Below, in pieces: positions 14,991 to 49,571 of a stretch of 64,000 nucleotides of DNA. Numbering within the stretch: position 1 is the stretch's first letter; every line of letters begins with the position of its first letter. This DNA comes from Halorhabdus amylolytica (lineage in GTDB: Archaea > Halobacteriota > Halobacteria > Halobacteriales > Haloarculaceae), in assembly GCF_004944975.1 (NCBI RefSeq), contig NZ_SPQG01000011.1, positions 1-64,000 on the forward strand, written 5' to 3'. Both the position numbers and the translations under genes were made by a program. Below the pieces are notes generated by a model. That model ran no database searches. It was not told where the DNA came from and was given only the letters and a program-made list of their open reading frames with translations.

Positions 14991-15038
14991 CATCCGCCTC
15001 CGCCTGAAGGCGGAGGAATCCCGACCGCAGTTGGGATA

Positions 15039-16405: not shown

Positions 16406-16600
16406 CCGTGGAACGCCACTATAATCACTTATACTTGCGTCTCATGTAAAGATTGGTGGTTGGTGACGGTGGAATATCCGGCCCTGTCGGTATCGGTGGA
16501 ACGTGGCACTGAGTGACGGCGCGTATCCACGGCCTGAAGGCCGTGGTATTGCGCCTGTTCAGCGTATAATCAGGTTTCTCCGCCGAAGCGGGACTCGTCG

Positions 16601-19700: not shown

Positions 19701-20348
19701 GTGAGCGACTCCGAAACGGCGGCGACGGACGACGGGACCAACGTATCGGCCGATCTCGAATCGCTGGTCGAAGACAATCCCGAGGAAGTCGCGCGGCTGC
19801 TCGACCGCCTCGGGCTGGTCAACGACCTGCTGGACGCCGCGGATGTCGCCACCTCGGCGATGGACGACGAGATGGTCCAGTCGCTGGCTGGGACCGGCAC
19901 CAACCTCGCGATGGCCGCCGACGGCATGGCGACTGACGAAACCGTCGAGCTTGGTGAGGCGGTCGGCGAAAACGCCGACGATCTCGCCGAGGGCGTCGAG
20001 AAGGTCGCCGAGTTGCAGCGGACGGGTACGCTGGACGATCTGCTCGAAGTGGCCGAAATCGCGTCGCTGGCAAGTGCGGCGATGGACGACGAGATGGTGA
20101 TGTCGCTGGCCTCGACCGGATCCCGACTCGGCGAGGTCGCCGACACGGCGGCGGACGACGATGTCGCGCGTGGACTGGAGGACGTCCTGGCGGCGCTGGG
20201 CGAAGCAACCAGCGAGGATCCCGAGCAGATCGGTGCGATCGGGCTGTTGAAGGCCACCCGTGATCCCGACGTTCAGGCCGGGTTGGGGCTTGTGATCGCA
20301 ATCGCCCGGGCGCTCGGCCAGCAGACGCGAGACAGTTCGACTGCGTGA
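19701..20348 (+). CDS. DUF1641 family protein
   Basis: 215 residues from a GTG with a GAGGTG site upstream; another GTG at 19692 is in frame. Two near-repeats, LLDAADVATSAMDDEMVQSLAGTGTNL and LLEVAEIASLASAAMDDEMVMSLASTGSRL, and the C-terminal IGLLKATRDPDVQAGLGLVIAIARALG are typical of DUF1641, which is found beside SQR-like oxidoreductases and formate-dehydrogenase-type operons. The biochemical role is unknown. It ends the sulfur operon. Confidence 0.85.
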   Translation: MSDSETAATDDGTNVSADLESLVEDNPEEVARLLDRLGLVNDLLDAADVATSAMDDEMVQSLAGTGTNLAMAADGMATDETVELGEAVGENADDLAEGVEKVAELQRTGTLDDLLEVAEIASLASAAMDDEMVMSLASTGSRLGEVADTAADDDVARGLEDVLAALGEATSEDPEQIGAIGLLKATRDPDVQAGLGLVIAIARALGQQTRDSSTA

Positions 20349-20466: not shown

Positions 20467-23400
20467 TTACGCGGTTTTGCGACGTCGGACATAGGCGCCG
20501 ACGAGCACGACAACCACGAGAGCCACGATCCCGATCCCGACGATCAGATGCAGGATGCCACTGCCATCGTCACTGTCGTCCGCGACTGCGTCGTCACTTT
20601 CTCCAGCCGCCGATTCGTCTTGGGCATCCAGCCACGGCAGGTCGGCACTGGAACTGGCGATCTCCGTCCCATCTTGATCGAGTTCGACCGTCCCGATAGT
20701 GAAATCGAACGTTCGGACGAATCCACCGTCTTCCGTTTCTGTCCCGACGTTAGCTGCGACCTCGTGAGTTCCCGCTGTTTCGACGATTTCGGTGTAAGTC
20801 GCGTTCAGCCGCTCTTCGGCCGGCACAGTCACTGCACGTTCTTCGGCGACTTCGCCGTCGATGACGAAGCGGACGTCGACTGTCCGGTCGATCGTTGCGG
20901 GGTTCTCGAGCGTGACGATGCTCGTCGTCTTCACGCTGTTTGCTGGCTCTGTTTCCAGGCGAACATCGACGATGTTGACTGTCTGCAGTTCGGATGGTTC
21001 GACCCACCGTTCCCCCGCAGTCGTTTCCCCACTGGGTTGCTCCTCATCAGTGGGAGTCTCGCCGTCGTCTTCTTCGGTGGTGGTGTCACCGTCATCTTCT
21101 TCGGTGGTAGTCTCGCCGTCGTCTTCTTCGGTGGTGGTGTCACCGTCGTTTTCTTCGGTGGTGGTGTCACCGTCGTTTTCTTCGGTGGTAGTGTCACCGT
21201 TATCGCCGTCATCACCATCGTCACCGTCACCACCATCGTCACCGTCGTCGGACGTATCGACCTCGACCGTGTCGGACTGGCCACTGGCACCGTCGTTACC
21301 GACGGTGTCTTCGGCGGTCTCCAGCGTGGCCGCGTAGTTGCCGTCACTACTTCCCGCGTACGTGGCTTCGTAGGTGTACGTGCCCTCGCCGTTGTCTGTC
21401 TCGGTAAAGTCACTCGTCGTGAGCGTGGCCGACTCGGTGCCGGTGAGCGCGACCTCGATGGTAGAGAGTTGCTCGTCGGCATCGAAGCTCACCTGCACGT
21501 CCTGTCCCGAGGGGTTGGTGACGCTGAACGTCGAAATGGACGGTGGGGTTGTGTCGATCGTTCCCAGCCCAGGCGTGGGCGATTGTGTGTTGTTCAGCAG
21601 GTATGGATAGGAGATCTCGGTCCCAGTTTTGATATCCCACGTGGTTCCGAAGTCGAAGGCGAGGCTGGTGTTCGCTTTGAGTTGGCTGGTCGTGAGCCCG
21701 GTCGCGTTGCCGGCCGAGGTGTCCTGGCCAGTCGTGTTCACGTCCCAGTAGGCGTCGGTCACCGTCGTACTCTCGGTGTTCCCGATCAGGCCGCCGACCG
21801 GCGTTCCGGTCGCCGATACTGTCCCGGCCGCGAACGAGTTGGCTACCTCGTTGTTCGAGCCGGTCGCGTTCCCCGCGAGACCGCCGACCATTCTGTCACC
21901 GGTGACACTCCCCGTCGCGTAGGTCTGGTTGACGGTCGTATTGAGGCTGGTCCCGACGAGGCCGCCGACATCCTCGGCCCCACTCACGTTCCCGGTCGCA
22001 TACGAGACGTTGACGACCGCACTCGCGCCCGTCCCGTTGGTGTATCCGACGAGGCCGCCGACGCTGGTGGCGTCGCCAGCGATCACATCACCGGTGGCGT
22101 TCGAGGTGGTGACGGTGCCCTGGTAGTTCTGGCCGACGAGGCCGCCGAACTGCGTCGGGACTGTCGCGCTGGCCTTGGCAGTCACGGATCCGCTGGCGGT
22201 CGAGTGTTCGATCGTCCCTCCCGGGCCCAACGATTCGGCCCCGTTCGCGCCGACGAGGCCGCCGACGCTTTGATTGCCGGTGATGGGTCCGCTGGCATTC
22301 GAAGCCCGGATCGATCCGCCCAGCTGCGCACCGACGAGGCCACCGACCGATCGGGTGCCAGTCACGGCCCCCGTCGCGTTGGATCCCAGTAGCGTACCAG
22401 TACTGCCCCCGACGATGCCACCGACCCGCCTCTCACCGGTGACGTTCCCGATCGCAGCGGACCGGTTTACGATGCCGAGGTTGACCCCGACGAGTCCCCC
22501 TGCATTGATGGTGCCCGTAACGTCCCCGGCCGCGACGGACGCGGATATCGTCCCCCCATTCTGCCCGACGAGGCCCCCGGTGTTATAATCGGAGCCGGTG
22601 ACGGTGCCGGTCGCCGTGGAGTCCGCGAGGACTGCACCCGAGTGGAGCCTGCCAATCAGGCCACCGATTTCTTCGCCAGTTCCGCTGACGGACCCGCTTG
22701 CCGTCGCGTTGCTGACGGATCCCTCGCTGTAGCCGGCGAGACCGCCCACTGTGTTGCTGGAAGTCCCATTACCCGTGACGTCACCACTCGCGGAGACGTT
22801 GCGAAGGGGCCCCAGAGTGGATCCGACGAGTCCGCCGACGTAGTCTTCGGTACTGGTAACGTTGCCCGTGGCGGTCGAATCGAGCACACTCCCCTCGTTC
22901 CGGCCGAGGAGACCACCGGTCTGGTCTCCGCCGGATACTGTGCCGCTCGCGTGGGAATTTTCGACGACGTGACTCCCGTTGAGTTCCCCAGCGAGACCCC
23001 CAACATACGTACCGTCGCCGGTCACGGCACCAGTGGCGGTCGATTCAGTCACGTTACTGGAGAGCCACCCGACGAGACCACCCACGTGTGCAGTGCCATT
23101 GACGTCACCACTCGCAGTTGCGTTCTCGACAGACCCTGGACTGGACCCGACGAGTCCGCCGACGTAGTCACCTGTCCCGTTGACCTGGCCGCTCGCGTTC
23201 GAATCGATAACCGACCCCTCATTCCGGCCGAGAAGCCCGCCAACCTGGTTTCTGCCGGACACTGCACCGCTCGCGTAGGAGTCTTCGACCACTCCTCCAC
23301 CGAGCAATTCCCCGACGAGACCACCGACCCAGTCTCCCGATCCGGTGACATCCCCGATCGCGTGTGAAGAACGGATTTCACCGGCTGACCCGTCAGATAA

Positions 23401-26400
23401 GCCCACGAGGCCGCCGAGGTTCTCGGTGCCGGTGACGGTCACGTTTGCGCTCGCGTTCGTCACCGTTCCGTTCCAGCTGTACCCGACCAGTCCGCCGACG
23501 TTGTGGACTCCCGACACTGTCCCGGACACTATGCTCTCCGTCACGCTCCCGCGGAGGTCACCGACGAGCACACTGGTCTCCCAGTTCCCGGAGATGGAAG
23601 CGTTCTCGACGGTGACGTCCGTCAGTGTTCCGCTGGCGCCAACGTATCTGAATAGCGCTGTTTCGTTTTCGGCGGGACGATCGATGGTCAGGTCTGCCAT
23701 AGTGGAGCCGTTGCCGTCGAACGTCCCGGTGAATCCTGTACTGTAGCCACCGATCGGGTCGAAGCCCTTCTGGGCGTCGTGGACTGCGTCGTACCCCGCC
23801 GTGTTCTCGTCGAGGTCGGCGACGAGCGTGAAGCTGGCATCGAGATTCTGGCGTGTATTGTTGAGGTGATTCCAGTTCTCGATCTGGTAGGGATCGCTGT
23901 CGGTACCCGACCCTCCGGCGTAGAGATCCCCGGTCCCGGAGTCGGCTGTTGCCAGCCCCGGCGCGGGCTGTTGGGTGTTTTGCAGCAGATACGGGTACGA
24001 GACGTGGCTAGAGTTGTCCAGGACATCCCACGTGTTCTGGAAGTCGAAGTTCGTGTTCGTCTTTGCGGGGTCGCCTTTCAGTTCCGCCGTCGAGAGGCCA
24101 GTCACGTTCGTCGTGGAACCGCCATTAAATCCAATGCCAGCCGACCGTCCGGTCGTGTTCTCGTCCCAATACACGTCAGCCACTGTGCCCAGATTCTGGC
24201 CGACAAGGCCACCCACATATTGGGAACCAGTCACGTTCCCCGAGACATATGACCTGTTCAGAGTGTCGTGGTTTTGCCCGACGAGCCCACCGACATACTC
24301 GGAGCCGGTCACGTTCCCTGTCGTATATGACCTGGTTAGCGTGCCCCGATTTACCCCAACGAGACCACCCACGTACTTGGAGCCAGTTACGGTCCCTGTC
24401 ACATAGGAGTGTTTCACCAGGCCGTAGTTCAGCCCGATGAGGCTCCCGACACGACTCGAACCGTCGATAACACTCGCATCGAGACTGGTGTTCGCAACTT
24501 TTCCGTTGCTTTCGACGGCTCCGAACAGACCGACGTAATCCTCAGTCGACCGGCCGATCGTCAGGTTCTCGATGATGTGACCGGTCCCATCGAAGGTTCC
24601 TGTGAACTCGGTGTCCTTCGAGAGATCAAATGTCCCGATCGGGTCGAAGCCAGCCCCGCCATTGGCCGAGGGACTTGCCACCGAATCGTAGCCCGCAGTC
24701 GTGGCATTCAGGTCGGCGACGAGCGTAAAGTTCGCACCGAGGTTCTGGCGCACGTTGTCGAGATGTGTCCAGTTCGCGATTTCGTATGGGTCGCTGTCGG
24801 TACCCGACCCTCCGGCGTAGAGATCTCCGGTCCCGGACCCGGCAGTTGCCAGTCCCGGCGCGGGCGACTGGGCGTTGTTCAGTAGATACGGGTACGAGAT
24901 GTGAGTAGCGTTGTCCACGACGCCCCACGTGTTCGTGAAGTCGAACGCGAGGCTGGTGTTTGCCTTCAGTTGGCTGGTCGTGAGCCCGGTGCCACCGGCC
25001 GAGGTGGGCTGACCGGTCGTGTTCGCGTCCCAATACGAGTCGGTTACCGAACCGGAGTTGACCCCGGTAAGGCCGCCGACATCACCAGCGCCGGTGGAAA
25101 CGCCGCCCGTCGCGTAGGACCGAGCAACTGTGCCCTTGTTTTGCCCGACCAGCCCACCAGCCCCCGAGTCCGTGTACGAAGCCGGACCAGTAACGGTGCT
25201 ATTCGCGTAGGAGTCCTCGATCGTGCCATTGTTCCAGCCGGCGAGGCCTCCGACGTCTTGGGTATCCACAGTAGCTGACCCTGTCGCGTAGGTTTCAGTC
25301 ACTGTTCCGTAATTGGTGCCGACGACGACGCCGACCCAATCGGATCCATCAACAGTTCCCTCCACCGACGAGCGACTCACCACTCCGTTACTTCTGCCAG
25401 CGAGGCCCCCGGTTTCTTGGCCACCAGTGACAGCGACGGCTTCCAGACTGACGTTCTCGATCGTTCCGGTAGTGCTAACGTTCCCGAAAAGACCGACGAA
25501 ATCCTCACCCGGTCGGTCGATCGTCAGGTTCGCGATAGTGAAGTCGTTGCCGTCGAAGGTTCCAGTGAAGGGTGTGCTGGAGTCGCCGATCGGGTCGAAG
25601 CCAGCGCCCCCGTTGGCGGAACCACTGGCTACCGAGCTATACCCGGCACTGTTCTTGTCCAGATTCGAAGCCAGCACGTAATCGCCGTCGAGATCATTGC
25701 GAACGTTGTTGAGGTCGTTCCAGTCCGTGATCTGGGTGATACTGATGCTGGCGTTGTCGGATTCGCCACTCGCGCCGTCTCTGCCGTCCGGTCCGATTGC
25801 CGTGTCGACCGTCGCAGTGTAGTCACCGTTCGTCGACCCGCTGTAGGAGGCGGTGTAGGTGAACGGCCCGCTACCGCTCTCGGTGAAGTCACTCTCGGTC
25901 AGCGTCGCGGACTCGGCACCGCTGATCGACACCGAAATCGTCGAGAGTTGGAGCGACGAGTCGAAACTAATCTCCAGGTTCTGAGCCGAGGGATTGGTAA
26001 CGGTGACGTTCGTAATCGACGGCGCTGGTTCCGCGAGCGCGTAGAAGGCACTGCCCGACCCGTAATACAAGGTGTCGTTCCAGACGAGTGGCGTGGCGTA
26101 GAGATTGCCCGTCGGTGAATCGTAGGCCCAGAGTTCTGTGCCGTCGGTCGCGTTGAAGGCATGGACCGACGCATTGCCGAAGTCCATGACGTAGACGACG
26201 TCGTCTACCACGATTGGCGCACCTCGGAAGTCTCTTCCCGTGTACTCCCATTTGAGGGTTCCATCAGAGGCGTTCAGCGCGGTGAGGTTGCCCCCGCGAC
26301 TGGACGCATAGAGTGTGCCGTCGGCGTAGACCTGTCCGCTGTCGACTTCACCTGACAGGGTGTAGTCCCAGCGTTTTGTTCCGTCGGTCGCGTTCAGGGC

Positions 26401-27492
26401 GTAGACGTTTCCGTTGTCGTCACCGATGAACACCGTGTCGTTGACCACTGTCGCGTCAGACTGGATGCCGATGGGCACCGAGTACTTCCAGACCAGATCC
26501 CCGGTCGTCGCGTTGAGCGCGGTCACATTACCGCCGTAACCGTAACCGCCACCCGAATTCCCACTTCCGAAGTAGACCACGCCGTCGACCACTGCCGGAT
26601 TCGATTCGACGAGGACGGGATCGTACAGGGTATGGTGCCACAGTTCCTCGCCGGTGGTGGCGTTCACTGCCGTCATGTTGCGATTGTTCGACCCGAAGTA
26701 GACCACGCCGTCCACGACCGCTGGGGCCGACCGAACGTTCGTTTGTGTCTGGTAGTTCCAGAGTTCGTTTCCGTTTTCGGCGTCGATTGCGTGGAGTTTG
26801 TAGTCGTTACTGCCGATGTAGAGGACACCGTTCGCGTAGGCGGGTGTCGTCCACGTCGAACCAGAAGTCCCGCCAGGTGTGGCGCTCCACTTCACTGCTC
26901 CCGTCTCGGGGTCGAGTGCGTAGAGTTGGCCGCCATCGTGGAACGCGGTGTAGAGCGTCCCGTTCACGATAGTCGATTGCATCACGTGCGGCGTCCCGTC
27001 CGAGATGTTCCACTGCTCGACGGGTTCCCTGGTCGGTCCTATCTGATTCGGGTAGTGTCCGAGGTTCCGTGGCCCGCCGTGGTATTTGGGATTGGCTGCC
27101 TCGATTGTCACCGTCTCGCTCGCGCTCGTGGACCCGCCCGCTACCGTGACGGTGTGGTCGCCAACGTCCCAGAGCGTCTCCTGAATCCAGATATTCGTGT
27201 TCGAGTTCGCCGCGACCGTCCCGTTTTTCCACTGTTCGACGGTCCCGTCGACGCTCACGGAGACGTTGTACGTCTGCTGGCTGCTGTCGGAGTTACTGAC
27301 GGTGATGTTAGCGTCGACAGCGCTTCCCTTCGGAAGTGTCGTCGGCGAGATTGACGCCGACGAGTAACTGACGGCCGTGTTTCCTGCACCGCCACCCGTG
27401 TTTGCGGCGGCTACGCCCGTTCCGAACGAGACGCCGACAGCAAGCACCGACATGACCATCAGTGTCGAAAGCGCGAGCGCGCGGAGTTTCAT
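20467..27492 (-). CDS. Giant surface protein: PQQ propeller, GLUG-repeat array, Thr/Glu linker, C-terminal membrane anchor
   Basis: 2341 residues. Sec signal about 1-30 (STLMVMSVLAVGVSFGTGVAAA); CARDB-like beta domain to about 135; PQQ-type beta-propeller about 140-485 (repeated LYALDPETGAVKWS-like blades); an Ig-like domain about 490-580; a long GLUG array about 585-1960 in three blocks, each opened by a WxxLxNxRxxL...DPIG...FTGTFDGN module and filled with VGGLVG-type units; a second Ig-like domain about 1970-2080; six 9-residue GDTTTEEDD-type repeats; a last beta domain; and a TM helix about 2312-2335 before RRRKTA. There is no PGF-CTERM motif. It is probably an S-layer-associated adhesin or binding scaffold. 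Confidence 0.9.
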   Translation of the reverse strand: MKLRALALSTLMVMSVLAVGVSFGTGVAAANTGGGAGNTAVSYSSASISPTTLPKGSAVDANITVSNSDSSQQTYNVSVSVDGTVEQWKNGTVAANSNTNIWIQETLWDVGDHTVTVAGGSTSASETVTIEAANPKYHGGPRNLGHYPNQIGPTREPVEQWNISDGTPHVMQSTIVNGTLYTAFHDGGQLYALDPETGAVKWSATPGGTSGSTWTTPAYANGVLYIGSNDYKLHAIDAENGNELWNYQTQTNVRSAPAVVDGVVYFGSNNRNMTAVNATTGEELWHHTLYDPVLVESNPAVVDGVVYFGSGNSGGGYGYGGNVTALNATTGDLVWKYSVPIGIQSDATVVNDTVFIGDDNGNVYALNATDGTKRWDYTLSGEVDSGQVYADGTLYASSRGGNLTALNASDGTLKWEYTGRDFRGAPIVVDDVVYVMDFGNASVHAFNATDGTELWAYDSPTGNLYATPLVWNDTLYYGSGSAFYALAEPAPSITNVTVTNPSAQNLEISFDSSLQLSTISVSISGAESATLTESDFTESGSGPFTYTASYSGSTNGDYTATVDTAIGPDGRDGASGESDNASISITQITDWNDLNNVRNDLDGDYVLASNLDKNSAGYSSVASGSANGGAGFDPIGDSSTPFTGTFDGNDFTIANLTIDRPGEDFVGLFGNVSTTGTIENVSLEAVAVTGGQETGGLAGRSNGVVSRSSVEGTVDGSDWVGVVVGTNYGTVTETYATGSATVDTQDVGGLAGWNNGTIEDSYANSTVTGPASYTDSGAGGLVGQNKGTVARSYATGGVSTGAGDVGGLTGVNSGSVTDSYWDANTTGQPTSAGGTGLTTSQLKANTSLAFDFTNTWGVVDNATHISYPYLLNNAQSPAPGLATAGSGTGDLYAGGSGTDSDPYEIANWTHLDNVRQNLGANFTLVADLNATTAGYDSVASPSANGGAGFDPIGTFDLSKDTEFTGTFDGTGHIIENLTIGRSTEDYVGLFGAVESNGKVANTSLDASVIDGSSRVGSLIGLNYGLVKHSYVTGTVTGSKYVGGLVGVNRGTLTRSYTTGNVTGSEYVGGLVGQNHDTLNRSYVSGNVTGSQYVGGLVGQNLGTVADVYWDENTTGRSAGIGFNGGSTTNVTGLSTAELKGDPAKTNTNFDFQNTWDVLDNSSHVSYPYLLQNTQQPAPGLATADSGTGDLYAGGSGTDSDPYQIENWNHLNNTRQNLDASFTLVADLDENTAGYDAVHDAQKGFDPIGGYSTGFTGTFDGNGSTMADLTIDRPAENETALFRYVGASGTLTDVTVENASISGNWETSVLVGDLRGSVTESIVSGTVSGVHNVGGLVGYSWNGTVTNASANVTVTGTENLGGLVGLSDGSAGEIRSSHAIGDVTGSGDWVGGLVGELLGGGVVEDSYASGAVSGRNQVGGLLGRNEGSVIDSNASGQVNGTGDYVGGLVGSSPGSVENATASGDVNGTAHVGGLVGWLSSNVTESTATGAVTGDGTYVGGLAGELNGSHVVENSHASGTVSGGDQTGGLLGRNEGSVLDSTATGNVTSTEDYVGGLVGSTLGPLRNVSASGDVTGNGTSSNTVGGLAGYSEGSVSNATASGSVSGTGEEIGGLIGRLHSGAVLADSTATGTVTGSDYNTGGLVGQNGGTISASVAAGDVTGTINAGGLVGVNLGIVNRSAAIGNVTGERRVGGIVGGSTGTLLGSNATGAVTGTRSVGGLVGAQLGGSIRASNASGPITGNQSVGGLVGANGAESLGPGGTIEHSTASGSVTAKASATVPTQFGGLVGQNYQGTVTTSNATGDVIAGDATSVGGLVGYTNGTGASAVVNVSYATGNVSGAEDVGGLVGTSLNTTVNQTYATGSVTGDRMVGGLAGNATGSNNEVANSFAAGTVSATGTPVGGLIGNTESTTVTDAYWDVNTTGQDTSAGNATGLTTSQLKANTSLAFDFGTTWDIKTGTEISYPYLLNNTQSPTPGLGTIDTTPPSISTFSVTNPSGQDVQVSFDADEQLSTIEVALTGTESATLTTSDFTETDNGEGTYTYEATYAGSSDGNYAATLETAEDTVGNDGASGQSDTVEVDTSDDGDDGGDGDDGDDGDNGDTTTEENDGDTTTEENDGDTTTEEDDGETTTEEDDGDTTTEEDDGETPTDEEQPSGETTAGERWVEPSELQTVNIVDVRLETEPANSVKTTSIVTLENPATIDRTVDVRFVIDGEVAEERAVTVPAEERLNATYTEIVETAGTHEVAANVGTETEDGGFVRTFDFTIGTVELDQDGTEIASSSADLPWLDAQDESAAGESDDAVADDSDDGSGILHLIVGIGIVALVVVVLVGAYVRRRKTA
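21040..21198 (-). repeat. Six tandem 27-bp repeats encoding a Thr/Glu/Asp linker
   Basis: The repeat encodes GDTTTEEND or close variants six times in a row. Such Thr-rich acidic linkers carry O-glycans in haloarchaeal surface proteins and hold the ectodomain away from the membrane. Copies differ at single positions (N/D and D/E), as expected for slippage followed by drift. Confidence 0.85.
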
Positions 27493-28030
27493 CGACTCAC
27501 CTTCCGTGATCGATCGCTGGCAGGCCCTGGACAGTCACGACGCCATGTCGCGGCGGCTGTACTCGACCCATACTCGTCTGGAGGGAGGACCTCCCATCGC
27601 CGTTTCCCATCGCCTGAGTTATCAGTGTTGAAAGTTAGGAGAATCGCACTTCGTGTCCGCGCAGGTCCGAACATACCATGGATATTCGTTTGTATACACA
27701 AAAGTAGAATATCTTCGTGTGACGGTATGTTGGCCGTGATCTGCCCACGAGCCGTTCGATGTACTCGCAAAAAACCCGGAAGCAAGGCTGTCTGCGATAG
27801 CGCGCCACTCCGAAACCAGCAATATACTCCTGTAGAGGCGATCGCTGCCCAGGCTTCTCTATCACTCCAAATACCTTCATATGAAGGTATCTCGTCGGCC
27901 CGGTACCGACGGTCTTTTCGACATGAGCTGTGGTATCTTGCCTCGCTCTGGCGCGACAGTAAAGAATCATATTTGAGAATAGGGCTGGGGTTCTCGACCG
28001 TAGAGCGTGACCCATGGCGCCGGCGGAGTT
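27493..28030. promoter_or_regulatory. 540-bp upstream region of the surface-protein gene with two palindromic sites
   Basis: No credible gene lies here; the open frames have non-haloarchaeal composition. A perfect 20-bp palindrome, ATACCTTCATATGAAGGTAT, sits at 27871-27890. A degenerate copy at 27709-27728 matches it at 16 of 20 positions. Both lie upstream of the leftward surface-protein gene. A third copy lies between the two regulatory genes (30077-30096). Confidence 0.6.
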
Positions 28031-29989
28031 TCACTCGAAGCGAGTCTCGAAGACCTTCTGCTGGGCGCGGTGGAGGTGCTGGAGGAACGTCGAGTGCGCA
28101 ACGCCCAGTGTCTCCGCGATTTCCGCCGCGGTGGCCCCGCGGGGCTGTTCGAAGTACCCGTGGTGGTACGCCGCACGGAGGGCCTGGCGTTGCTTGTCGG
28201 TGAGTCGGGCCGCTCGCAGCTCGCTGCCGGGATCACTCGCTTCCTCGTCGCCGATCGCAAGGAGTGAGACGTCCTCGAACGCCGCCTGCAATCGCTCGAG
28301 TGTCGGTGTGACGGTCTCCCGGGATTGGAGCTGTGCCTCGACGACGGCACCGTTGCTGTCGAGGGTCGTGGTATCGACGACGACGCCCCGCGACGCGAGA
28401 TGGGCTTCCGGACTGGGGCACGTGACCGTCACCTGGAGTCTGCGTGGCTCGACGTCGATTTCGTGGACTGACCGCACGTCCGGGTGAGCAGCCAGTACGT
28501 CCTGAATCGCGTCCGTCGCGCCCTCGATACGGAGATACTGGACGATTCCGTCCTCGTCGTCCGGGACAGTTCCCTGGACGGTGACCCGCTTGCAGTCCCG
28601 AAAGGCCCCGTCCATCGCGAGGTCTGCGAGGTAATACCCGTCGTCGTCGACGCGAAACCGGGCCGTGACAGTCCGGTCTGCAGCGAGGGTATTCTCCGTC
28701 GCGAGGCTGTGAATCCCGAACGCGACGGTATCCCCGAGGTCGGTGAGCAACCGGCGTTCGGTCTCGCCGAAATGGTCCTCCTTGTCGTGATAGACCGCCA
28801 ACACGCCATAGGGAACGTCGTTGTGTTCGAGCGGGACCGCCCCGCCGGACCGGAACCCGTGGTCTGTGACGACTTCTCGCCACGCCGAGGGAAACAACTC
28901 GGCGATGTCCTGGACGAACTGTGGCTCTCCCGACTGGGCAGCCCACGTAGCGGGTTCGCCCTGCACCTCGTCGGTTTCGGCGGCTGAGGAGATCGCATCG
29001 ACAAACTCGCGATCCCCACCAACAGCCCGCGGGGACAGTCCATCGGTCGCCCGCTCGGCAACCCACACGACCGGATACCCATACTCGTATAAATGGGTGA
29101 CGACGTCTGCTTCCAGTGTGTCTCGCGTCCGAGATTCGACCAGTGCTTCCTGAACCGTTCGATTGAGGTCTCGCTCCCACCGTAGCTCACGCTCGCGGCG
29201 TCGTCGTTCGCTCACGTCACGGATCGAAACGAGCAGTGTCGGCTTGCCGTCGTCGGTGATCCGTCGACCAGTGAACTCACACACCCGAAGCGTCCCGTCG
29301 GAACGGCGAAGGCGCGCCTCCTGTAATTCCGGCTCGGAACTCCCGTCGTCCCAGTTCGCGAACGCCTCACGAACCGCTTTGCGGTCGTCCGGGTGAATCG
29401 CGTCTTCGACGAGATCCTCGCCGATCCAGGACACACAGTCTTTGCCCGTGAGGTCAGCAAAGCGCTGGTTGCAAAACTGTACACGATCGTCTCTGAGCAG
29501 ACAGATCGCGTCACGACTCTCCTCGACGACAGACCGATAGCGCTGTTCGCTTTCCTCGAGTTGGGATTGTAAGCGACGCTGGCGCACAACTGACTCGATT
29601 TTCTCGGCAAAGAGTGGGGATTGATCGATCGACGGATCTTTGACGACGTAATCGGTCACGCCGGCGTCGATCGCCTGGGCAGCGACGTCCTCGTTTCCCT
29701 CACTGGTGATGAGGATGAACGGAATGTCCGGGCGGTCCTCGCGAATGCGTTCGAGCAATTCCAGGCCGGTAATGCCCGGCATCATGTAGTCCACGATCAG
29801 ACAGTCGACCCGGTCGGACTCCGCGAGCTGGACGAGCGCCTCGTTGGCATCGTTCGCGACCGAGACAGTGATCTCCTCCGTCTCGGTTTCGATCCGCTTC
29901 GCAGCGACTGAGGCCCATCGTTCGCTGTCGTCGACTAACAGCGTGTGGATGTCTTGTTCGCTCTCTTCGGTCGAGTCATTCCCTGTCAT
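28031..29989 (-). CDS. REC-PAS-GAF-HTH10 response regulator (Bat-type)
   Basis: 652 residues from MTGNDSTEESEQDIHTLLVDD. The receiver domain (about 14-125) has phospho-acceptor Asp in CLIVDYMMPG and Lys in YVVKDPS. PAS follows at about 140-260 (RYRSVVEESRDAICLLRDDRVQFCNQRF), a GAF-like domain at about 275-420 (GAVPLEHNDVPYGVLAVYHDKEDHF), the bacterioopsin-activator domain, and a C-terminal HTH-10 (KQRQALRAAYHHGYFEQPRGATAAEIAETLGVAHSTFLQHLHRAQQK). It is divergent from a histidine kinase, so phosphotransfer between them is likely. It probably binds the palindromes found upstream of itself and of the surface-protein gene. Confidence 0.9.
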   Translation of the reverse strand: MTGNDSTEESEQDIHTLLVDDSERWASVAAKRIETETEEITVSVANDANEALVQLAESDRVDCLIVDYMMPGITGLELLERIREDRPDIPFILITSEGNEDVAAQAIDAGVTDYVVKDPSIDQSPLFAEKIESVVRQRRLQSQLEESEQRYRSVVEESRDAICLLRDDRVQFCNQRFADLTGKDCVSWIGEDLVEDAIHPDDRKAVREAFANWDDGSSEPELQEARLRRSDGTLRVCEFTGRRITDDGKPTLLVSIRDVSERRRRERELRWERDLNRTVQEALVESRTRDTLEADVVTHLYEYGYPVVWVAERATDGLSPRAVGGDREFVDAISSAAETDEVQGEPATWAAQSGEPQFVQDIAELFPSAWREVVTDHGFRSGGAVPLEHNDVPYGVLAVYHDKEDHFGETERRLLTDLGDTVAFGIHSLATENTLAADRTVTARFRVDDDGYYLADLAMDGAFRDCKRVTVQGTVPDDEDGIVQYLRIEGATDAIQDVLAAHPDVRSVHEIDVEPRRLQVTVTCPSPEAHLASRGVVVDTTTLDSNGAVVEAQLQSRETVTPTLERLQAAFEDVSLLAIGDEEASDPGSELRAARLTDKQRQALRAAYHHGYFEQPRGATAAEIAETLGVAHSTFLQHLHRAQQKVFETRFE

Positions 29990-30076
29990 TGTGTACTCGC
30001 CGCTGCTGTGGCACTCCCTGCTGGGCACTGTCGCTCCCCACCGGCGGCCCAGTCTCTTGTCGAGGAATTCATCCGC

Positions 30077-30096
30077 CTACCTTCGTATGAAGGTAT
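30077..30096. promoter_or_regulatory. Palindromic operator in the divergent regulator/kinase promoter
   Basis: CTACCTTCGTATGAAGGTAT matches the 20-bp palindrome at 27871-27890 at 18 of 20 positions. It lies 88-107 bases upstream of the regulator start and about 120 bases upstream of the kinase start. This fits autoregulation. Confidence 0.55.
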
Positions 30097-30213
30097 TAGG
30101 TTGTATATGTATCGGTCAACTCAGATCGTGAGACGTACCAACCCCTGTTACGGGGCCAATGTGGGGCACATTCTTGTATCAGGCTGTTCCAGAGTTCTTC
30201 ACGGTGAGGATTC

Positions 30214-31743
30214 GTGAGTGACCCTTCCACACAGTCGCCACAGCCATCGGGTGTCGACCAGTCATTCCTCCCGTATCCGTATCAACGACTCACTCGGAGC
30301 GGGCAAATCAGTGCAGTCAACGAGGCCTGGGTCAGTGTCTTGGGGTACGAGGCAGACGACGTCTGTGGCGAGACGTTTCGCGAGTACGTCCATTCGGCTG
30401 ACCGGGAAGATTTCCGGTCGGCGTTCGATCGATTTATCACCGGGGAGCGATCGAGTCCGATCGAATTGGATATCCGGCACGCGGATGGCCATCCCGTGAC
30501 TGTCACGCTCGATATCTGCATCGAACGTAACGATGGGGGGGTATTCGAGAACGCACACTGTCAGTTCACGGAAATCGACCCAGCCAGCCGTTTTGGATCC
30601 CTCTCGACCACTGGTGGGGACACTGACGAAGGGTTCAGTGCCACGGAAGAACGACTGAAATTGGCCATCGAAGGGGCAAAACTCGGCATCTGGGACTGGG
30701 ACATGGAGGCTGACGAGGTGTTGCGCGACGAACTGCTGGCGAACATGCTTGGCTATTCGCCCGAAGAGATGGGTGATCAGTTAGACGACTGGGAACGATT
30801 GGTCCATTCCGACGGCAAGCAGCGCCACGACGAGGCGCTCGCAGAACACGTCTCGAAGGGGACCGATTTCTATCAGTGTGACTACCGGATGAAGACAAAA
30901 TCCGGCGACTACAAGTGGGTCCGAACGATGGGAACGGTTGTCGAGTGGGACGACGAGGGGGAGCCACAACGAGCGGTAGGCATTCATCTGGATATCGATG
31001 ACCAGAAGCGAAATCAGTTGAAACTTGCTCGTCGGACGGATCAACTCGAAGCCCTCAACCGGGTCGTAAGACACGACATCCGCAACGACATGAACGTCCT
31101 CCACATGTGGGCACAAGAACTCGACGACCACATCGAGGAGTCCGGTGAGCAGGCACTCGAACAGATCCTCGCTTCGGCAGGTCACATCCTGGAACTGACC
31201 GACGTGGCCCGCGAGTTCGTCGAATCGCTGGGTATCGACGAGGGCGTGGATCTCAAGCCCGTGGATCTGAAAGCCCATCTCGAGAAAGAACTCGCCAAAC
31301 AACGCGAGACGTATCCGCATGCCGATTTCGAGATCGGCGGTTCTCTCCCGGACGTGACTGTCCGGGCAAACGAAATGATCTCTTCCGTCTTCCGGAACCT
31401 GCTTGTCAACGCCGTCGAACACAATGACTCGTCGTCGCCAACCGTCGCGGTCGAGGCGACCGTCCGGGAGGATACCGTTGCAGTCGTCGTCGCGGACGAC
31501 GGCCCCGGGATCGCGCCTCCGCTCAGAGCGGAAATCTTCGGAAGGGGAGCCAAAAGCGTCACTGGTGGCACTGGTATCGGGTTGTATCTGGTCGAAACAC
31601 TCGTCGAAAATTACGGGGGGACAATCCGCGTGACGGGCCGCAACGAGTGGGAAGACTCGCACGGTCAGCTGTTGCCCCGCGGAGCAGATACAACCGGGGC
31701 GGTGTTCGTGGTCGAACTGCCACTGGCGGACGCCGTGCGGTGA
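30214..31743 (+). CDS. PAS-PAS sensor histidine kinase (soluble)
   Basis: 509 residues from a GTG. There is no membrane segment, so it is cytoplasmic. PAS 1 is at about 18-125 (SGQISAVNEAWVSVLGYEADDVCGETFREYVHSADRE), PAS 2 with PAC at about 145-270 (KLAIEGAKLGIWDWDMEADEVL, YRMKTKSGDYKWVRTMGTVVEWDDEG). The H-box is RVVRHDIRNDMNVL (His near 287), the N-box NLLVNAVEHND, the G1 box DDGPGI and the G2 box GGTGIGLYL. All catalytic boxes are present. It is divergent from the receiver-HTH10 regulator. The signal is unknown; PAS domains suggest redox, light or small-molecule sensing. Confidence 0.9.
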   Translation: MSDPSTQSPQPSGVDQSFLPYPYQRLTRSGQISAVNEAWVSVLGYEADDVCGETFREYVHSADREDFRSAFDRFITGERSSPIELDIRHADGHPVTVTLDICIERNDGGVFENAHCQFTEIDPASRFGSLSTTGGDTDEGFSATEERLKLAIEGAKLGIWDWDMEADEVLRDELLANMLGYSPEEMGDQLDDWERLVHSDGKQRHDEALAEHVSKGTDFYQCDYRMKTKSGDYKWVRTMGTVVEWDDEGEPQRAVGIHLDIDDQKRNQLKLARRTDQLEALNRVVRHDIRNDMNVLHMWAQELDDHIEESGEQALEQILASAGHILELTDVAREFVESLGIDEGVDLKPVDLKAHLEKELAKQRETYPHADFEIGGSLPDVTVRANEMISSVFRNLLVNAVEHNDSSSPTVAVEATVREDTVAVVVADDGPGIAPPLRAEIFGRGAKSVTGGTGIGLYLVETLVENYGGTIRVTGRNEWEDSHGQLLPRGADTTGAVFVVELPLADAVR

Positions 31744-31759: not shown

Positions 31760-32301
31760 CCGCTGGATGTGGCATCTACAGGCGGAAGCGGGTGCAGAAC
31801 GCCGAAAAACCGAGTATGCACGATACGCTCGAAGGTCGGGAAGAACGGTTCGTCCGTGACCGACTCCACAAGGTGAGCCGTCACATCGTGGAGTGGAGCC
31901 ACCAGTTCGAGAACCCATGCATCGTCTTTGAAGACCTCAAAGAGATGCGCGACAGTATCGACTACGGCACGCGGATGAACCGACGCTTGCACCACCTGCC
32001 GTTCCGTGCGCTCCAATACTACACCTCGTACAAAGCCGCCTTCGAAGGCGTGCCAACAGCGTGGATTGACCCTGAATACACGAGTCAACAGTGTCCGATG
32101 TGTGGACATACGGAACGGGCGAACCGCAACAAAAAGCGGTTCAAGTGCTGCTCGTGCCAGCATCAGGACCACGCCGACCGAAGTGCGAGCGTCAACATCG
32201 CTGTGAAAGGTATCGGGAAGCATCAAGACTGGAATGTGCCTGCTCTCAACAGCCTTCCCCAAGTACGGAAGATATCGACCGAGAGACGGAGTCTCTCGTG
32301 A
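31760..32301 (+). pseudogene. tnpB: tnpB remnant, C-terminal part only
   Basis: An in-frame stretch beginning near YRRKRVQNAEKPSMHD continues through IVFEDLKEMRD (RuvC-II Glu), EYTSQQCPMCGHTERANR, FKCCSCQHQDHADRSASVNIAV (zinc ribbon and RuvC-III Asp). The N-terminal half with the RuvC-I Asp is missing, and no start is appropriate. The frame ends in ERRSLS-stop inside a double-hairpin repeat, the same ending as the other broken tnpB in this window. It begins only about 20 bases after the kinase stop. Confidence 0.85.
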
Positions 32302-33446: not shown

Positions 33447-34634
33447 ATGGTTTCCGAGTCGTTTCAGGATCGCGATTGGTTACGGGATCGGTTGGCGTCC
33501 GTCCTCGAGTTCTACTACCCCCGGGGTGTGGATGATCGACATGGCGGCTATCTCGCCAATCTCGACGAGCGGACGGGCGAGGTATACGATCCCCACACCA
33601 AACATCTGGTGGCGAGTTGCCGGTACGTCGTGAACTTCTGCGTCGGTGATCGTCTCGATGGTCCCAACTGGTGCCGGACGGCCGCGGCCCGGGGTGTGGA
33701 CTTCTTGCAGGCCGGCCACCGTGACCCTGAGACCGGTGGTTATGACTGGCTTCTCGACGGAACGAAACCGGTCGATCGAAAGCGGGTGTGCTACGGTCAC
33801 GCTTTCGTCTTGCTGGCGTACGCTCGCGCCGTCGAGGCCGACATCCCGGGTGCAGCGGACTCCCTGGATGCTGTCTACGAGCTGCTGATGGAGCACTTCT
33901 GGGAACCCGAGTACGACCTCTGCCGGAGCGAGTACGACGGCGACTTCGAGACGACAGCCGAGTATCGTGGGCAGAACGCCAACATGCACACCTGCGAGGC
34001 AATGTTGGCCGCTTACGAGGCGACTGACGAACAACGGTACCTCGATCGCGCCAGTGAGATCGCCCACGCGCTGACGGTCGAACTCGCCGCCGAACACGAC
34101 GGTCTGCTGTGGGAACATTACACCGACGAGTGGGATCACGACATGGCCTACAACCGTGACAAGCCGGCTGATCTCTTCCGGCCATGGGGCTACCAGCCGG
34201 GCCATCACATCGAGTGGGCAAAACTACTGGCCGTCCTCGACCGGTATACGGGGACGGATTGGGCGCTAGACCGGGCAGAAGAACTGTTCACTGCTGCAGT
34301 CGATCACGGCTGGGACGACGCGTACGGCGGGTTCGTCTATACGTTCGACCCGGACGGCGAGTCGATCGTCGACGACAAGTACGGGTGGCCCGTCGCCGAG
34401 GGGATCGGCGCGGCCGCTGCGCTGTACGAACGGACCGGCGAGGACGGCTATCTCGAGTGGTACGAGCGTCTCTGGGCGTACGCCCAGGAACACCTGACCG
34501 CGCCGGGCGGCAACTTCCACACGAAACTCACCCGGGAAAACGATCCGTACGAGACCGACGAGAGTCCCGCAGTCGAACCCGGGTATCACCCGATCGGTGC
34601 CTGTTTCGAGGCGATCCGATCGTTCGACGACTGA
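33447..34634 (+). CDS. AGE-family sugar 2-epimerase/isomerase, probable D-mannose isomerase
   Basis: 395 residues, the usual length for N-acylglucosamine 2-epimerase/mannose isomerase relatives with an (alpha/alpha)6 barrel. Family blocks: RHGGYLANLDERTG, ASCRYVVNFCVG, GGYDWLLDGTKPVDRKRVCYGHAFVLLAYA, GQNANMHTCEAMLAAYEAT with the conserved HxxE-type His, and the GYQPGHHIEWAKLL helix with catalytic His. The ATG at 33447 fits the family N-terminus; an open frame extends upstream but is not conserved in type. Next to a beta-mannosidase and a PfkB kinase, mannose to fructose isomerisation is the best guess. Confidence 0.85.
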   Translation: MVSESFQDRDWLRDRLASVLEFYYPRGVDDRHGGYLANLDERTGEVYDPHTKHLVASCRYVVNFCVGDRLDGPNWCRTAAARGVDFLQAGHRDPETGGYDWLLDGTKPVDRKRVCYGHAFVLLAYARAVEADIPGAADSLDAVYELLMEHFWEPEYDLCRSEYDGDFETTAEYRGQNANMHTCEAMLAAYEATDEQRYLDRASEIAHALTVELAAEHDGLLWEHYTDEWDHDMAYNRDKPADLFRPWGYQPGHHIEWAKLLAVLDRYTGTDWALDRAEELFTAAVDHGWDDAYGGFVYTFDPDGESIVDDKYGWPVAEGIGAAAALYERTGEDGYLEWYERLWAYAQEHLTAPGGNFHTKLTRENDPYETDESPAVEPGYHPIGACFEAIRSFDD

Positions 34635-34769
34635 ATTTCGACTCAGTCCGTTCGTTCGATCCGGAACGTGCAGGACAGTCTTCCAGTGAGGTCGACCGTC
34701 TGCTGGACGTGATCGATACTGTCCCCTGGCGTCACCAAACTCATTATGGACAAAATACAACCGACTGAC

Positions 34770-35729
34770 ATGACGCACTCACAAACGCTTATCGCGGGGG
34801 AAATGCTCGTCGACATGTTTCCGGCTGCACCGGGCTCACTGTCCGAGGCCGAGTCCTTTGAACGGCGGGCGGGTGGGGCGCCGGCGAACGTCGCCGTTGC
34901 CATGGCTCGCCTGGGGCGACCGGCCTCCCTCTGGTCGCGCCTCGGTACGGACCCGTTCGGCACGTATCTGGAGGGGGTCCTGGCCGACAACGACGTCCCG
35001 TCTCGCTTCCTGGAACGGGACGCCGAGCACAAGACGGCGCATACGCTCGTCGGAACCGATCCGGACGCCGACCAATCGTTCGTCTTCTACAAGGAGGGGA
35101 CGGCGACGATGGCCTTCGAGCCGGAGTGGATCGACGATTCTGTACTTGATGACCTCGAATGAGTCCACTTCGGCGGCGTCCTCCTCTGTGAGGAACCGTC
35201 CCGGAGCGCGATGTTGGACCTCGCGGAGCGTGCTGGCAACCGGGATTGTACGGTCTCGTTCGATCCGGACACGCGGGCTGATCTCTGGCCCGACCGGAGC
35301 GATCTCGAGCCGACAGTACGAACGGCGTTTGGTCACGCGGACGTGGTCAAGTCCGATCGCGAGGACCTGTCGATCCTCCTCGAGGGAGAGTCCGAACCGC
35401 GGGCGGTTGCCGAACCCATCACGGAGTACGGCCCACATACCGTCTTTCTCACGCGTGGGTCGGCAGGGACCTTCGGATTCGCCACGGAAGCGGCCCCCTG
35501 GGGGCCGGGGACCGTCGATGAACCGAGCGTGGATGTCGAGGCTGTCGACACGACCGGTGCCGGCGACGCCTTTACTGCGGGCGTCATCACCGCGCTGGTC
35601 GAGGGAACGTCGTTCCGCGAGGCGGTCCGTTTCGGTAACGCTGTCGGCGCGCTCGCGACGACCGATGTCGGCGCGATGTCGTCACTCCCGGACAGAGGAT
35701 CCGTCGAGGAATTCCGCCGCGACGACTGA
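34770..35729 (+). pseudogene. PfkB-family sugar kinase interrupted by an in-frame TGA
   Basis: Read through, this is a 319-residue ribokinase-fold kinase: GEMLVDMFPAAPGSL, RAGGAPANVAVAMARLGRPASLWSRLGTDPFG, and the C-terminal anion-hole and base motif DTTGAGDAFTAGV. A TGA at 35160-35162 (LDDLE-stop-VHFGGVLL) keeps the same frame on both sides, so one base change of TGG (Trp, common at this position) explains it. The stop removes the catalytic Asp. Fructokinase or ketohexokinase activity would complete a mannose-fructose route after the AGE enzyme. It could be a real mutation or a sequencing error. Confidence 0.85.
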
Positions 35730-35737
35730 AATGCGTT

Positions 35738-35811
35738 CCTCAGTAGGTCTCCCGGAGGTGTCTCACCGAAAGGTCCTCAGTAGGTCTCCCGGAGGTGTCT
35801 CACAGAGAGGT
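35738..35811. repeat. 37-bp tandem duplication at the 3' end of the beta-mannosidase gene
   Basis: CCTCAGTAGGTCTCCCGGAG... is repeated at 35738-35774 and 35775-35811 with about two mismatches. The inner copy encodes the mannosidase C-terminus (VRHLRETY-stop); the outer copy lies just beyond the stop. This is a slippage or unequal-exchange scar. Confidence 0.85.
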
Positions 35812-38299
35812 CCTCCTGCAGACGCGCTTCGATCAGGCCGTCGCGGTTGTCGTCAGTCGGTTCGAAGGTCACAGTCCGCGTTTCGCCGGGCCGCAGGTGG
35901 AAATAATTGTCCGAGAACGCCCCGATCAGTGAGCCGGGATCGAGTTCGACGAACAGTGCGGTCCTCTCGCTTTCGACGGTCACGTCGGCCCCGTCGATCT
36001 CGATGTCTAGTTCCGTCCGGGGCAATTCGAGCGCCTTGTAGCCCTCGAAAAAGGCGACGTTGGGGTAGGATTCACCAGGACCCTCGTACTCGGCACGGAG
36101 CATGACTGCCGACGTGTCGACGCCGTCGGGCAACTCCTCGCGGTCGACGGTCAACAGTGGCGTGCTTTCGCCAGCGTCGACATCGACGTCGACTGTCCGT
36201 TCGTCGAGGACATCGCCTGACGTCACGTCGACGATCTCTACCATTACGTCCCCTGAGACCGGCTCGGGTCGATCGCTGGTGAGCCAGAGTGTCTGGGCGG
36301 TGACCTCGCCCCACTCCCGCTGGCCGTCATCGGCCTGGGCGTTCTCGGGGCCGTCGTCGCCGTCGAACGTCGGGTGGAACGAGACCAGGACGGGAGCGTA
36401 CTGACGGCGGGCCATGTACTGTTGGGCTTTCCACTTGCCGTCGTACTCGATAGAGGCCCAGGAGGCTACCGGCCAGAGATCGTTGAGTTGCCAGTATAGC
36501 GTCCCCATCGTCGTGGGCTTGCGCCGCCGCCAGTGCTCGATGGCAGTCTTCATCGCGAGACCGTGCTGGACCTGTGAGAGGTAGACGAAGTCCTCGAAGT
36601 CAAAGGGGAACCGGAAGTACGAGGCCAGGCGAGAGAGGATGGTGGCGTTCCCACCGGGATTGCGCTGGTGATGTTCCATTAGCGGCGCGGTCGGATTGAA
36701 GTCCTCCGCTTCGAGGACCGTCCGCAGGGAGTCTAACGAAGGGAACGACTGGTAACCGAACTCGGAGACGAACCGCGGCTCGGTCGTGAGGTAGTTCTCG
36801 AAGGGTTGGCCCTCGTGCCAGACGTTCCAGTAGTGGATGTCGCCTGCTTGGAAGCTGTATGGATTGTCCTCGTCGGGCCCGCTGGAGGGAGAACCCGGCC
36901 AGAACGTCCGGGAGGGGTCTTCCTCGCGACAGGTCGCCCCGACCGTCTCTTCGTAGAGCGCCTCGTAATCGTCGACGTGTCGGTCGTGGGCGTCGTGATC
37001 GCCGAACCAGTTGTGAAGTGCTTCCTCGTTTTCGTTGTTCCCACACCACAGGGCGATCGATGGGTGGTTGGCGAGTCGGCGGACCTGGTAGCGGACCTCG
37101 TCTTCGACCGATTCGAGGAACTCTTCGTCCGCCGGATAGAGTGAACAGGAGAACATGAAGTCCTGCCAGACGAGGAGTCCGTACTCGTCACAGAGATCGT
37201 AGAACGTCTCGTTCTCGTAGTAGCCACCGCCCCAGACCCGCAGCATGTTCATGTTTGCCTCAGCGGCTGAGCGGATCACATGTTCGTACCGATCGTCGGT
37301 GACGTCGCCGTACATCGGGGCGACGGGGATCGTGTTCGCCCCTTTCGCGAACACCGGGGTGCCGTTGATCTCGAAATAAAAAGACGTGCCGTCCGCGTCG
37401 GGTTCGACCACCAGTTCCACCTCGCGGAAGCCGATCGACTCGGTCGTTACGTCCTGGTCGTGTTCACCCTGGACGCGGACTTCCAGTTGTGACAACGGCT
37501 GATCGCCGTAGCCGTTGGGCCACCACAGGTCGGGATCTTGTACTGTCATCGTCATTTCGACCGCCTGGCGACCGGGTTCGAGCGTGACCGTTTCGGCGGT
37601 CGACGCGTCGTCGACGGCCGCCGAGAGGTCGTATTCGCCGGAGCGGGGAACGTCCAGGCCGACTCGAACGTCGAGGTCGACCGCCCCCTCGCGGTGGTTC
37701 TGTTCGGTCGTCGTATACGTGATCCGGGGATCCGTGTACCCGACCAGCGCTATGTCCCGATAGATACCCATCGTCGGCAGACAGGGCCCCCAGTCCCACC
37801 CGTAGTGACACTGGGCCTTGCGGACGAACGGCCGACCGGGTTGTTCGATGGGATAGTGAGTGTATGGCACCTCGTGAGGATACTCTTCCATCCGCCCGGT
37901 ACCGTACTCCACTGGTGAGCGGAATTCGACTGTGATTCCGTTCTCGCCGGCTTCGAGTGCCTCGCGGACGTCGAACTCGTTGCCGACGTGCATGTTTTCG
38001 GACTCACCCACGATCGTGCCGTTCACCGAGACCGTCGCGACGGTGTCGAGTCCCTCGCACGTCAGCAGGACGCGTTCGTGATCGAGGAACGCGGCGTCGA
38101 CAGTGAACGTCCGTCTGTACGTCCAATCTGTCTTTCCGACCCATTGGACGTCGAGCTCGGTGTCCCCGCGGAGCGGGTCCTCGATCTCCCCGGCGTTCAC
38201 GAGATCCGTGTAGACGCCACCGGGAACGCTGGCGTCGAGCCACGTCCGATCGTCGCGTTCGGAAAACTCCCACCGGCCGTTCAATGACTTGCGCCGCAT
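35777..38299 (-). CDS. GH2 beta-mannosidase
   Basis: 840 residues, the usual size of GH2 beta-mannosidases. N-terminal sugar-binding domain (SLNGRWEFSERDD, WVGKTDWTYRRTFTV), Ig-like domain, TIM barrel with KGANTIPVAPMYGDVTDDRY and MNMLRVWGGGYYENETFYDLCDEYGLLVWQDFMF. The acid/base Glu is in WCGNNENEEAL (near residue 421) and the nucleophile Glu in FVSEFGYQSFPS (near 514). The C-terminal domain ends LIGAFSDNYFHLRPGETRTV. There is no signal peptide, so it acts on imported manno-oligosaccharides. An AT-rich TATA region (38318-38330) precedes the start. Confidence 0.93.
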   Translation of the reverse strand: MRRKSLNGRWEFSERDDRTWLDASVPGGVYTDLVNAGEIEDPLRGDTELDVQWVGKTDWTYRRTFTVDAAFLDHERVLLTCEGLDTVATVSVNGTIVGESENMHVGNEFDVREALEAGENGITVEFRSPVEYGTGRMEEYPHEVPYTHYPIEQPGRPFVRKAQCHYGWDWGPCLPTMGIYRDIALVGYTDPRITYTTTEQNHREGAVDLDVRVGLDVPRSGEYDLSAAVDDASTAETVTLEPGRQAVEMTMTVQDPDLWWPNGYGDQPLSQLEVRVQGEHDQDVTTESIGFREVELVVEPDADGTSFYFEINGTPVFAKGANTIPVAPMYGDVTDDRYEHVIRSAAEANMNMLRVWGGGYYENETFYDLCDEYGLLVWQDFMFSCSLYPADEEFLESVEDEVRYQVRRLANHPSIALWCGNNENEEALHNWFGDHDAHDRHVDDYEALYEETVGATCREEDPSRTFWPGSPSSGPDEDNPYSFQAGDIHYWNVWHEGQPFENYLTTEPRFVSEFGYQSFPSLDSLRTVLEAEDFNPTAPLMEHHQRNPGGNATILSRLASYFRFPFDFEDFVYLSQVQHGLAMKTAIEHWRRRKPTTMGTLYWQLNDLWPVASWASIEYDGKWKAQQYMARRQYAPVLVSFHPTFDGDDGPENAQADDGQREWGEVTAQTLWLTSDRPEPVSGDVMVEIVDVTSGDVLDERTVDVDVDAGESTPLLTVDREELPDGVDTSAVMLRAEYEGPGESYPNVAFFEGYKALELPRTELDIEIDGADVTVESERTALFVELDPGSLIGAFSDNYFHLRPGETRTVTFEPTDDNRDGLIEARLQEDLSVRHLRETY

Positions 38300-38524
38300 G
38301 GCTATCCATGAGTGGATCCACGTGTATAATATTATCGGAAGATATTGGGGAAATTAAGGGTGGACAGGGTTCTATCGGTGGGATCGCTCCTTTCTCCGGT
38401 CGTTCCCGGAGGGCCGGATAACCGATCCCGAAGCTGGCATCGTCGACAGGTAACGTCCGTCAGAGTCGGTGTGAACGAGCGGTCCGTAGCTCACGCCCGA
38501 TCAGTCCGTCAGCTTGGGGCTCTG

Positions 38525-42698: not shown

Positions 42699-42721
42699 CG
42701 TTGCGTATAGTCGTTGGTCAT
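42695..42721 (-). CDS. Possible 8-residue leader peptide before permease B
   Basis: ATG followed by seven sense codons (product MTNDYTQR) and TGA overlapping the permease ATG. The 13-base word TACGCAACGATGA occurs twice, once before each ATG, so the small frame may have arisen by duplication of the translation start. It could couple or tune translation; it could also be chance. Confidence 0.3.
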   Translation of the reverse strand: MTNDYTQR

Positions 42722-42931
42722 CGTTGCGTATTTTCGTATGATTCGGTTCGATACGTGTTGGTTGATACCATTGACTCGCTCGTGTGTTTCATCGATTGGG
42801 TTCCGATGTGATCAGGATTGCCGGTGATATGGCATTAGTCGTTTCGATGTTTCGCGTCGTGGGGACCCGTCATATCCCCCCACTGGCGACCCGAAAGAAG
42901 CCAGGCAGTGGGTGACGGTCACTCGCGTCGG

Positions 42932-44785: not shown

Positions 44786-45014
44786 AGTACATTGGGGATA
44801 ACGACAGCTCTGGGTAATAAAGATTTGGTACGAATCCCACGAACGGACGATTTCTTTACGGATCGAACACACGAAAGTGGCTCCGCACTCGACGTGTCGG
44901 TCGGGCTCTTTAGATCCGACTACGATCGCGAACGTGCTCGCAGGGCATGCCGGTGGTGGTCGGACGTGGGGATCGTCCGGTAGCTATAACCGGGTGGATC
45001 GGCGAGACGTGGAC

Positions 45015-46465: not shown

Positions 46466-46525
46466 AAAGGAACAGCTACGCGATCACTGAAGAAGCTTCT
46501 GCCCGCCATCGAAGGGTCTATCCTG

Positions 46526-49458: not shown

Positions 49459-49571
49459 ATTGTGTCATATGAGCGTGGACGTAAATATCGTTCTCCGCAG
49501 GGATCGAGTCGTCTATTTGGGGGACAGAAAGATGAATCGGATCCCGTGACGTGCTGGTACGGCGGGAGTGT

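Follow-up and report, generated by a model that had tools for sequence, protein, structure and literature searches.

Three conserved palindromes as predicted operators of a Bat-type two-component circuit beside a giant surface protein gene in Halorhabdus amylolytica

The window analysed here, a stretch of 64,000 nt of Halorhabdus amylolytica DNA, carries a Bat-type response regulator, a histidine kinase and a giant surface protein gene that probably form a cassette-restricted two-component circuit controlling surface display, with three inverted repeats as its predicted operators. The circuit we infer would proceed by phosphotransfer, binding, activation and looping. The cytoplasmic PAS-PAS kinase would sense a signal and phosphorylate the neighbouring Bat-type regulator, which would bind the three repeats as a dimer, the half-site centres lying 10 bp apart, or about one helical turn. 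At the kinase and surface genes the regulator, bound next to a TATA-like element, would probably activate transcription, and the distal site, some 160 bp further upstream, may aid the proximal one via looping or a raised local concentration. The main targets of the cassette would be its own promoters.

The regulator, the kinase and three palindromic sites

The regulator is encoded on the minus strand at 28031-29989 (652 aa from the ATG; the ORF opens at 30028). The preliminary description had called it a REC-HTH10 protein; both of these domains were found, and the full architecture is richer, REC-PAS-GAF-BAT-HTH_10. The receiver matches Response_reg (E 6.1e-22) and the C terminus HTH_10 (PF04967, E 4.3e-22, residues 609-661), with BAT (PF15915, E 6.2e-18), GAF_2 (E 1.1e-14) and PAS (E 2.9e-12) between them. 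Receiver features, including the phospho-acceptor Asp, were read from the sequence (acidic pair LLVDDSE, DCLIVDYMMPG, ITSEG, VVKDP). The best 60 PDB chains match the receiver or the receiver plus PAS only, and no solved relative of BAT or HTH_10 is among them.

The divergent gene at 30214-31743 on the plus strand encodes a cytoplasmic histidine kinase of 509 aa, and its earlier reading as a PAS-PAS kinase holds: it has two PAS domains, an H box (VVRHDIRND) and a clear HATPase_c domain (E 2.2e-19), with a weak HisKA match (23.6 bits, under its cutoff of 26.9). On the other side of the regulator lies the giant surface protein gene (20467-27492, minus strand), whose product of 2341 aa has a PQQ-type propeller and GLUG repeats, as well as a signal peptide and a C-terminal TM anchor that were read off the sequence.

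All three palindromes of the preliminary description were recovered. The distal site upstream of the surface gene (27871-27890) is a perfect 20-bp palindrome, ATACCTTCATATGAAGGTAT, with 0 mismatches and the core ACCTTC-ATAT-GAAGGT at 27873-27888. The copy in the divergent intergenic region that regulator and kinase share (30077-30096, CTACCTTCGTATGAAGGTAT) matches at 18/20 with the core ACCTTC-GTAT-GAAGGT, and the proximal site upstream of the surface gene (27709-27728, ATATCTTCGTGTGACGGTAT) matches at 16/20, its core on the minus strand being ACCGTC-ACAC-GAAGAT. The ATG of the surface gene is 234 bp from the start of the proximal site and 396 bp from that of the distal one. As the working core of the site family we used the 16-bp pattern ACCTTC-N4-GAAGGT.

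At up to 3 mismatches the 20-mer occurs in the 3.46 Mb genome only at 27871-27890 and 30077-30096, with 0 matches for a reversed-pattern control and 0 in shuffles of the window. Scatter through the genome, named beforehand as the outcome that would speak against the proposal, was not seen, and the sites are confined to the locus. The remaining exact core, at C25:12673, falls inside an ORF that resembles a PIN-domain protein by appearance, and was taken as chance. The idea of a wider regulon in the H. amylolytica genome was rejected, as the genome-wide scans, which were pattern searches rather than scans with a position weight matrix, gave no further high-scoring intergenic site. When all intergenic inverted repeats were compared within each locus, irrespective of motif, these sites were the only convincing recurring family, in H. 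amylolytica as in two congeners, G006 and G002. Markov shuffles of each promoter region gave p <= 0.0007 in 6/6 regions.

Taken alone, the 16/20 copy does not reach significance, since TACCTTC-N4-GAAGGTA at up to 2 mismatches is found at 9 places in the whole genome versus 8 in the control; the copy is supported by its position and its conservation. Its background frequency and the transposase fragment just past the kinase (31792-32301) are what could be said for reading the repeats as chance or as a mobile-element relic. We give this reading practically no credence: the shuffles, the uniqueness of the sites in the whole genome and their conservation in three species all contradict it.

Conservation of the sites and promoter geometry

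A regulator orthologue is present in 2/6 other congeneric genomes, G006 (87% identical) and G002 (62%), with divergent kinase orthologues beside it (74% and 62%, respectively). Each of these congeners keeps three sites in matching positions: a single one lies between regulator and kinase, and a pair precedes the target gene. The twin upstream sites are spaced by 162 bp in H. amylolytica and in G006 and by 160 bp in G002, and the divergent intergenic site lies 86-89 bp from the regulator ATG in all three species. The distal core is kept in both congeners. The proximal core is identical in G006, at the same 234 bp from the start codon, and perfect in G002, at 167 bp. Between H. amylolytica and G002 the arms agree at 33/36 positions (11/12 and 22/24), versus 48% and 39% identity outside the arms in the aligned intergenic DNA (Fisher p 0.003 and 2e-7). 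The sites occur in just three species, of which two are closely related.

Across the family (146 genomes), exact cores were clustered only in H. amylolytica and G002, with scattered occurrences elsewhere (at most 2 per genome); the locus of G006 has one exact core and two near matches. No exact core was found in the four congeners that lack the regulator. The conserved number, place and spacing of the sites in two congeners support the earlier claim of a circuit controlling surface display, and it fits this claim that congeners without the regulator have no such sites and that regulator, kinase and giant surface protein are repeatedly found together, as described below.

These distributions also bear on the proposal that the palindromes are operators of another transcription factor, encoded elsewhere and controlling kinase, regulator and surface gene jointly. 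Dozens of related HTH_10 regulators are present per genome, so that another one could bind, the link between the HTH_10 domain of the cassette and the site is not direct, and distant orthologues do not share the site. Such a factor would be expected to have further targets, but none were found in the genome, and the sites are missing from congeners without the regulator although most other regulators are common to them. We regard another factor as decidedly unlikely.

Putative TATA-like elements lie 7-8 bp from the divergent and the proximal cores in 3/3 species. The element of the kinase promoter (30101-30108, plus strand) is TTGTATAT, and reads TTGTAAAT in G006 and G002 at the same offset. 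Similarly, a putative T-rich element lies beside the proximal site (27692-27703, minus strand, TTTTGTGTATAC). Past the proximal core on the surface side the T-rich element reads TTTTGTGT in H. amylolytica and G006 and TTTAGTTG in G002, at equal offset. In none of these three species was a TATA element apparent near the distal site or in the direction of the regulator. A site placed just upstream of TATA would suit an activator. It counts against the model that the surface gene would need a 5' leader of about 170 nt if the proposed TATA element is right.

This geometry also bears on the opposite sign of control, in which the regulator, bound at these sites, would repress both the surface gene and the kinase gene until phosphorylation released it. 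A protein bound so near the TATA-like elements could block TBP/TFB, and two spaced sites could form a repression loop. The sites nevertheless lie just upstream of TATA and not over it, and Bat, a relative that has been characterised, acts as an activator bound to upstream activator sequences (PMC1885257); repression is in our view rather unlikely, and control of the surface gene by the regulator is probably activating. Autoregulation, the weakest claim of the preliminary description, is plausible for the regulator gene, which shares the intergenic site, and is backed less than control of the kinase gene, on whose side the TATA-like element lies.

The repeats could also be read as RNA hairpins in leaders, with a 7-bp stem and a 4-nt loop, serving as attenuators or stability elements, and their geometry would fold on either strand. 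Against this, the two broken pairs of the proximal site are kept in G006, and base identity is conserved beyond pairing. Moreover, on both the kinase side and the surface side the sites lie upstream of the putative TATA element, and would therefore fall outside both transcripts. A role as RNA hairpins is highly improbable.

The surface cargo and the boundaries of the cassette

The twin-site promoter precedes GLUG-repeat giants in H. amylolytica and G006. In G002 it precedes an unrelated fibre-type operon of three genes, encoding a protein of 1028 aa (N-terminal coiled coil, repeats, no Pfam domain matched with confidence), one of 98 aa, and one of 688 aa with PKD and a C-terminal TM segment. 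The C-terminal 120 aa of the giant were found at E <= 1e-12 only in H. amylolytica, G006 and a further genome, G120, all three of which have the regulator. Both kinds of cargo meet in G120, where a second copy of the C-terminal domain of the giant occurs in a row of genes with a Peptidase_S74 fibre-type protein. This S74 protein is 40% identical over 391 aa to its counterpart in the G002 row, and a 90-aa protein of G120 is 65% identical to the 98-aa protein of G002. An element common to the surface-gene promoter of G120 and the region after its regulator is not an inverted repeat of the ACCTTC-N4-GAAGGT kind.

In the G120 row itself (L102 1792-5931), the S74 fibre-type protein, which has a putative Tat signal, and the 90-aa protein are accompanied by a coiled-coil protein and by a TM protein that has its C terminus in common with the giant; the row is possibly a haloarchaeal surface-fibre system.

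We tentatively propose, as a reading that falls just short of probable, that the locus is a self-contained surface-switch cassette, in which the kinase, the Bat-type regulator and the twin-operator promoter stay at one chromosomal spot and only the surface genes that follow the promoter are replaced. If this is true, haloarchaeal lineages could swap the displayed surface protein without rewiring its control.

The gene left of the cassette (19701-20348) is found in 7/7 genomes of the genus. In the congener G003 it adjoins a homologue of the gene at 54080-55477, named SRP54-like from its sequence, and in G002 the cassette sits exactly between the left-flank gene and the SRP54-like gene. In G005 the left-flank gene adjoins a thioredoxin-reductase-like gene (likewise named from sequence), the homologue of which in G006 is near the other end of the cassette. 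From the boundaries in the two congeners without the cassette (G003 and G005) and the layout in G002, it follows that the regulator, the kinase and the surface gene or genes behave as a single accessory block whose location is fixed and, in at least two congeners, empty.

Several other features of the neighbourhood were recorded. Directly past the kinase, at the cassette edge, the remnant at 31792-32301 (plus strand) resembles the zinc-finger end of a TnpB-type (IS200/IS605) protein. The region between the cassette and the SRP54-like gene (33447-50657) is a sugar-use island by appearance, with epimerase-like, sugar kinase, glycosidase-like, ABC transporter and IclR-type genes. A region with a transposase-like ORF (15039-15986) is flanked by a pair of GC-rich 20-bp palindromes that share their centre, CCTCCGCCTGAAGGCGGAGG and CCACGGCCTGAAGGCCGTGG (14997-15016 and 16527-16546), possibly the end hairpins of an insertion sequence.

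The regulator family and known Bat-type systems

At E <= 1e-100 the regulator has matches in 17 of 392 order-level genomes, namely H. amylolytica, G006, G002 and 14 others that are 38-50% identical; a related-loci search of the genome contigs found no orthologue. The kinase is adjacent to the regulator in 14/17 orthologous neighbourhoods. A giant secreted protein is encoded within 9 kb of the regulator for 8/17 orthologues versus 0/18 other Bat-type loci of the genus (Fisher p 0.001, or 0.006 with near-identical loci collapsed), where G120, G432 and G267 were counted through composition, a TM segment or repeat homology, a signal peptide being undetected with a crude choice of start. The eight giant-linked loci are spread over three separate clades of the regulator tree.

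Three regulator-kinase pairs, in G123, G410 and G159 (L050, L091 and L095), lie beside a gene that is signal-peptidase-like by sequence resemblance, and in L050 and L091 this gene is joined by genes for short, TasA-like secreted proteins. Control by the regulator family may extend to other surface structures. In addition, a different Bat-type regulator lies within 9 kb of a UvrA-like gene in 7/7 congeners (L103-L109), a conserved linkage.

A family-wide operator was considered and rejected: ACCTTC-N4-GAAGGT is hardly above chance in the distant orthologues (2 at up to 2 mismatches versus 0.27 expected), and the core is not recognisable in most of them. The relevant promoters of these orthologues are enriched in the variant ACCGTC-N4-GACGGT (4 at up to 1 mismatch versus 0.02 expected). 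This variant is a lead only, because it was chosen with the data in view, N4 does not stand out in spacer controls and the pattern is common in those genomes. The surface gene of G296 has two such repeats upstream (up to 2 mismatches, L088 3033-3048 and 3212-3227), 179 bp apart, which resembles the twin-site layout. No conserved repeat of the site kind was found upstream of the kinase-regulator operon in three close genomes of another genus (G441, G380 and G320).

Among characterised systems, Bat, the bacterioopsin activator of Halobacterium, binds upstream activator sequences of targets that include its own and neighbouring genes (PMC1885257), so autoregulated Bat-type regulators with neighbouring targets are already known. 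The cassette regulator belongs to the same family (PAS, GAF, BAT, HTH_10). It differs from Bat in its clear REC domain, in the histidine kinase encoded next to it and in its predicted target, a surface protein.

NarO/DmsR-type proteins are Bat-like regulators with an inverted-repeat motif, CGAAYATDKTYG, upstream of neighbouring denitrification targets (PMC10062603, PMC11218638). This motif is 12 bp long, for example CGAACATGTTCG, and is found in 83 promoter regions (PMC10062603, PMC11218638). Both NarO and DmsR are without PAS and GAF domains (PMC11218638), whereas the cassette regulator has both. The 16-bp core ACCTTC-N4-GAAGGT likewise differs from their motif in sequence and spacing and in its restriction to one locus.

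The architecture itself is also known: a 2018 census lists REC-PAS-GAF-BAT-HTH_10, in identical domain order, for more than 250 proteins of Halobacteria, and describes Bat-type proteins as the majority of DNA-binding response regulators in archaeal genomes (PMC5847659). We found no published binding site or target set in the literature for the full-length architecture paired with a kinase. What appears new here is the predicted operator sequence, the apparently dedicated kinase with a putative adhesion-type target and, as the most interesting part of the locus, the conserved promoter with seemingly exchanged cargo, which suggests a way for haloarchaea to change their large adhesion-type surface proteins and yet keep the control. 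The census passages on this architecture name neither an operator nor a target set; the locus offers both as predictions, a 16-bp operator and two or three target promoters, together with a natural presence/absence comparison within one genus, and specificity is therefore directly testable.
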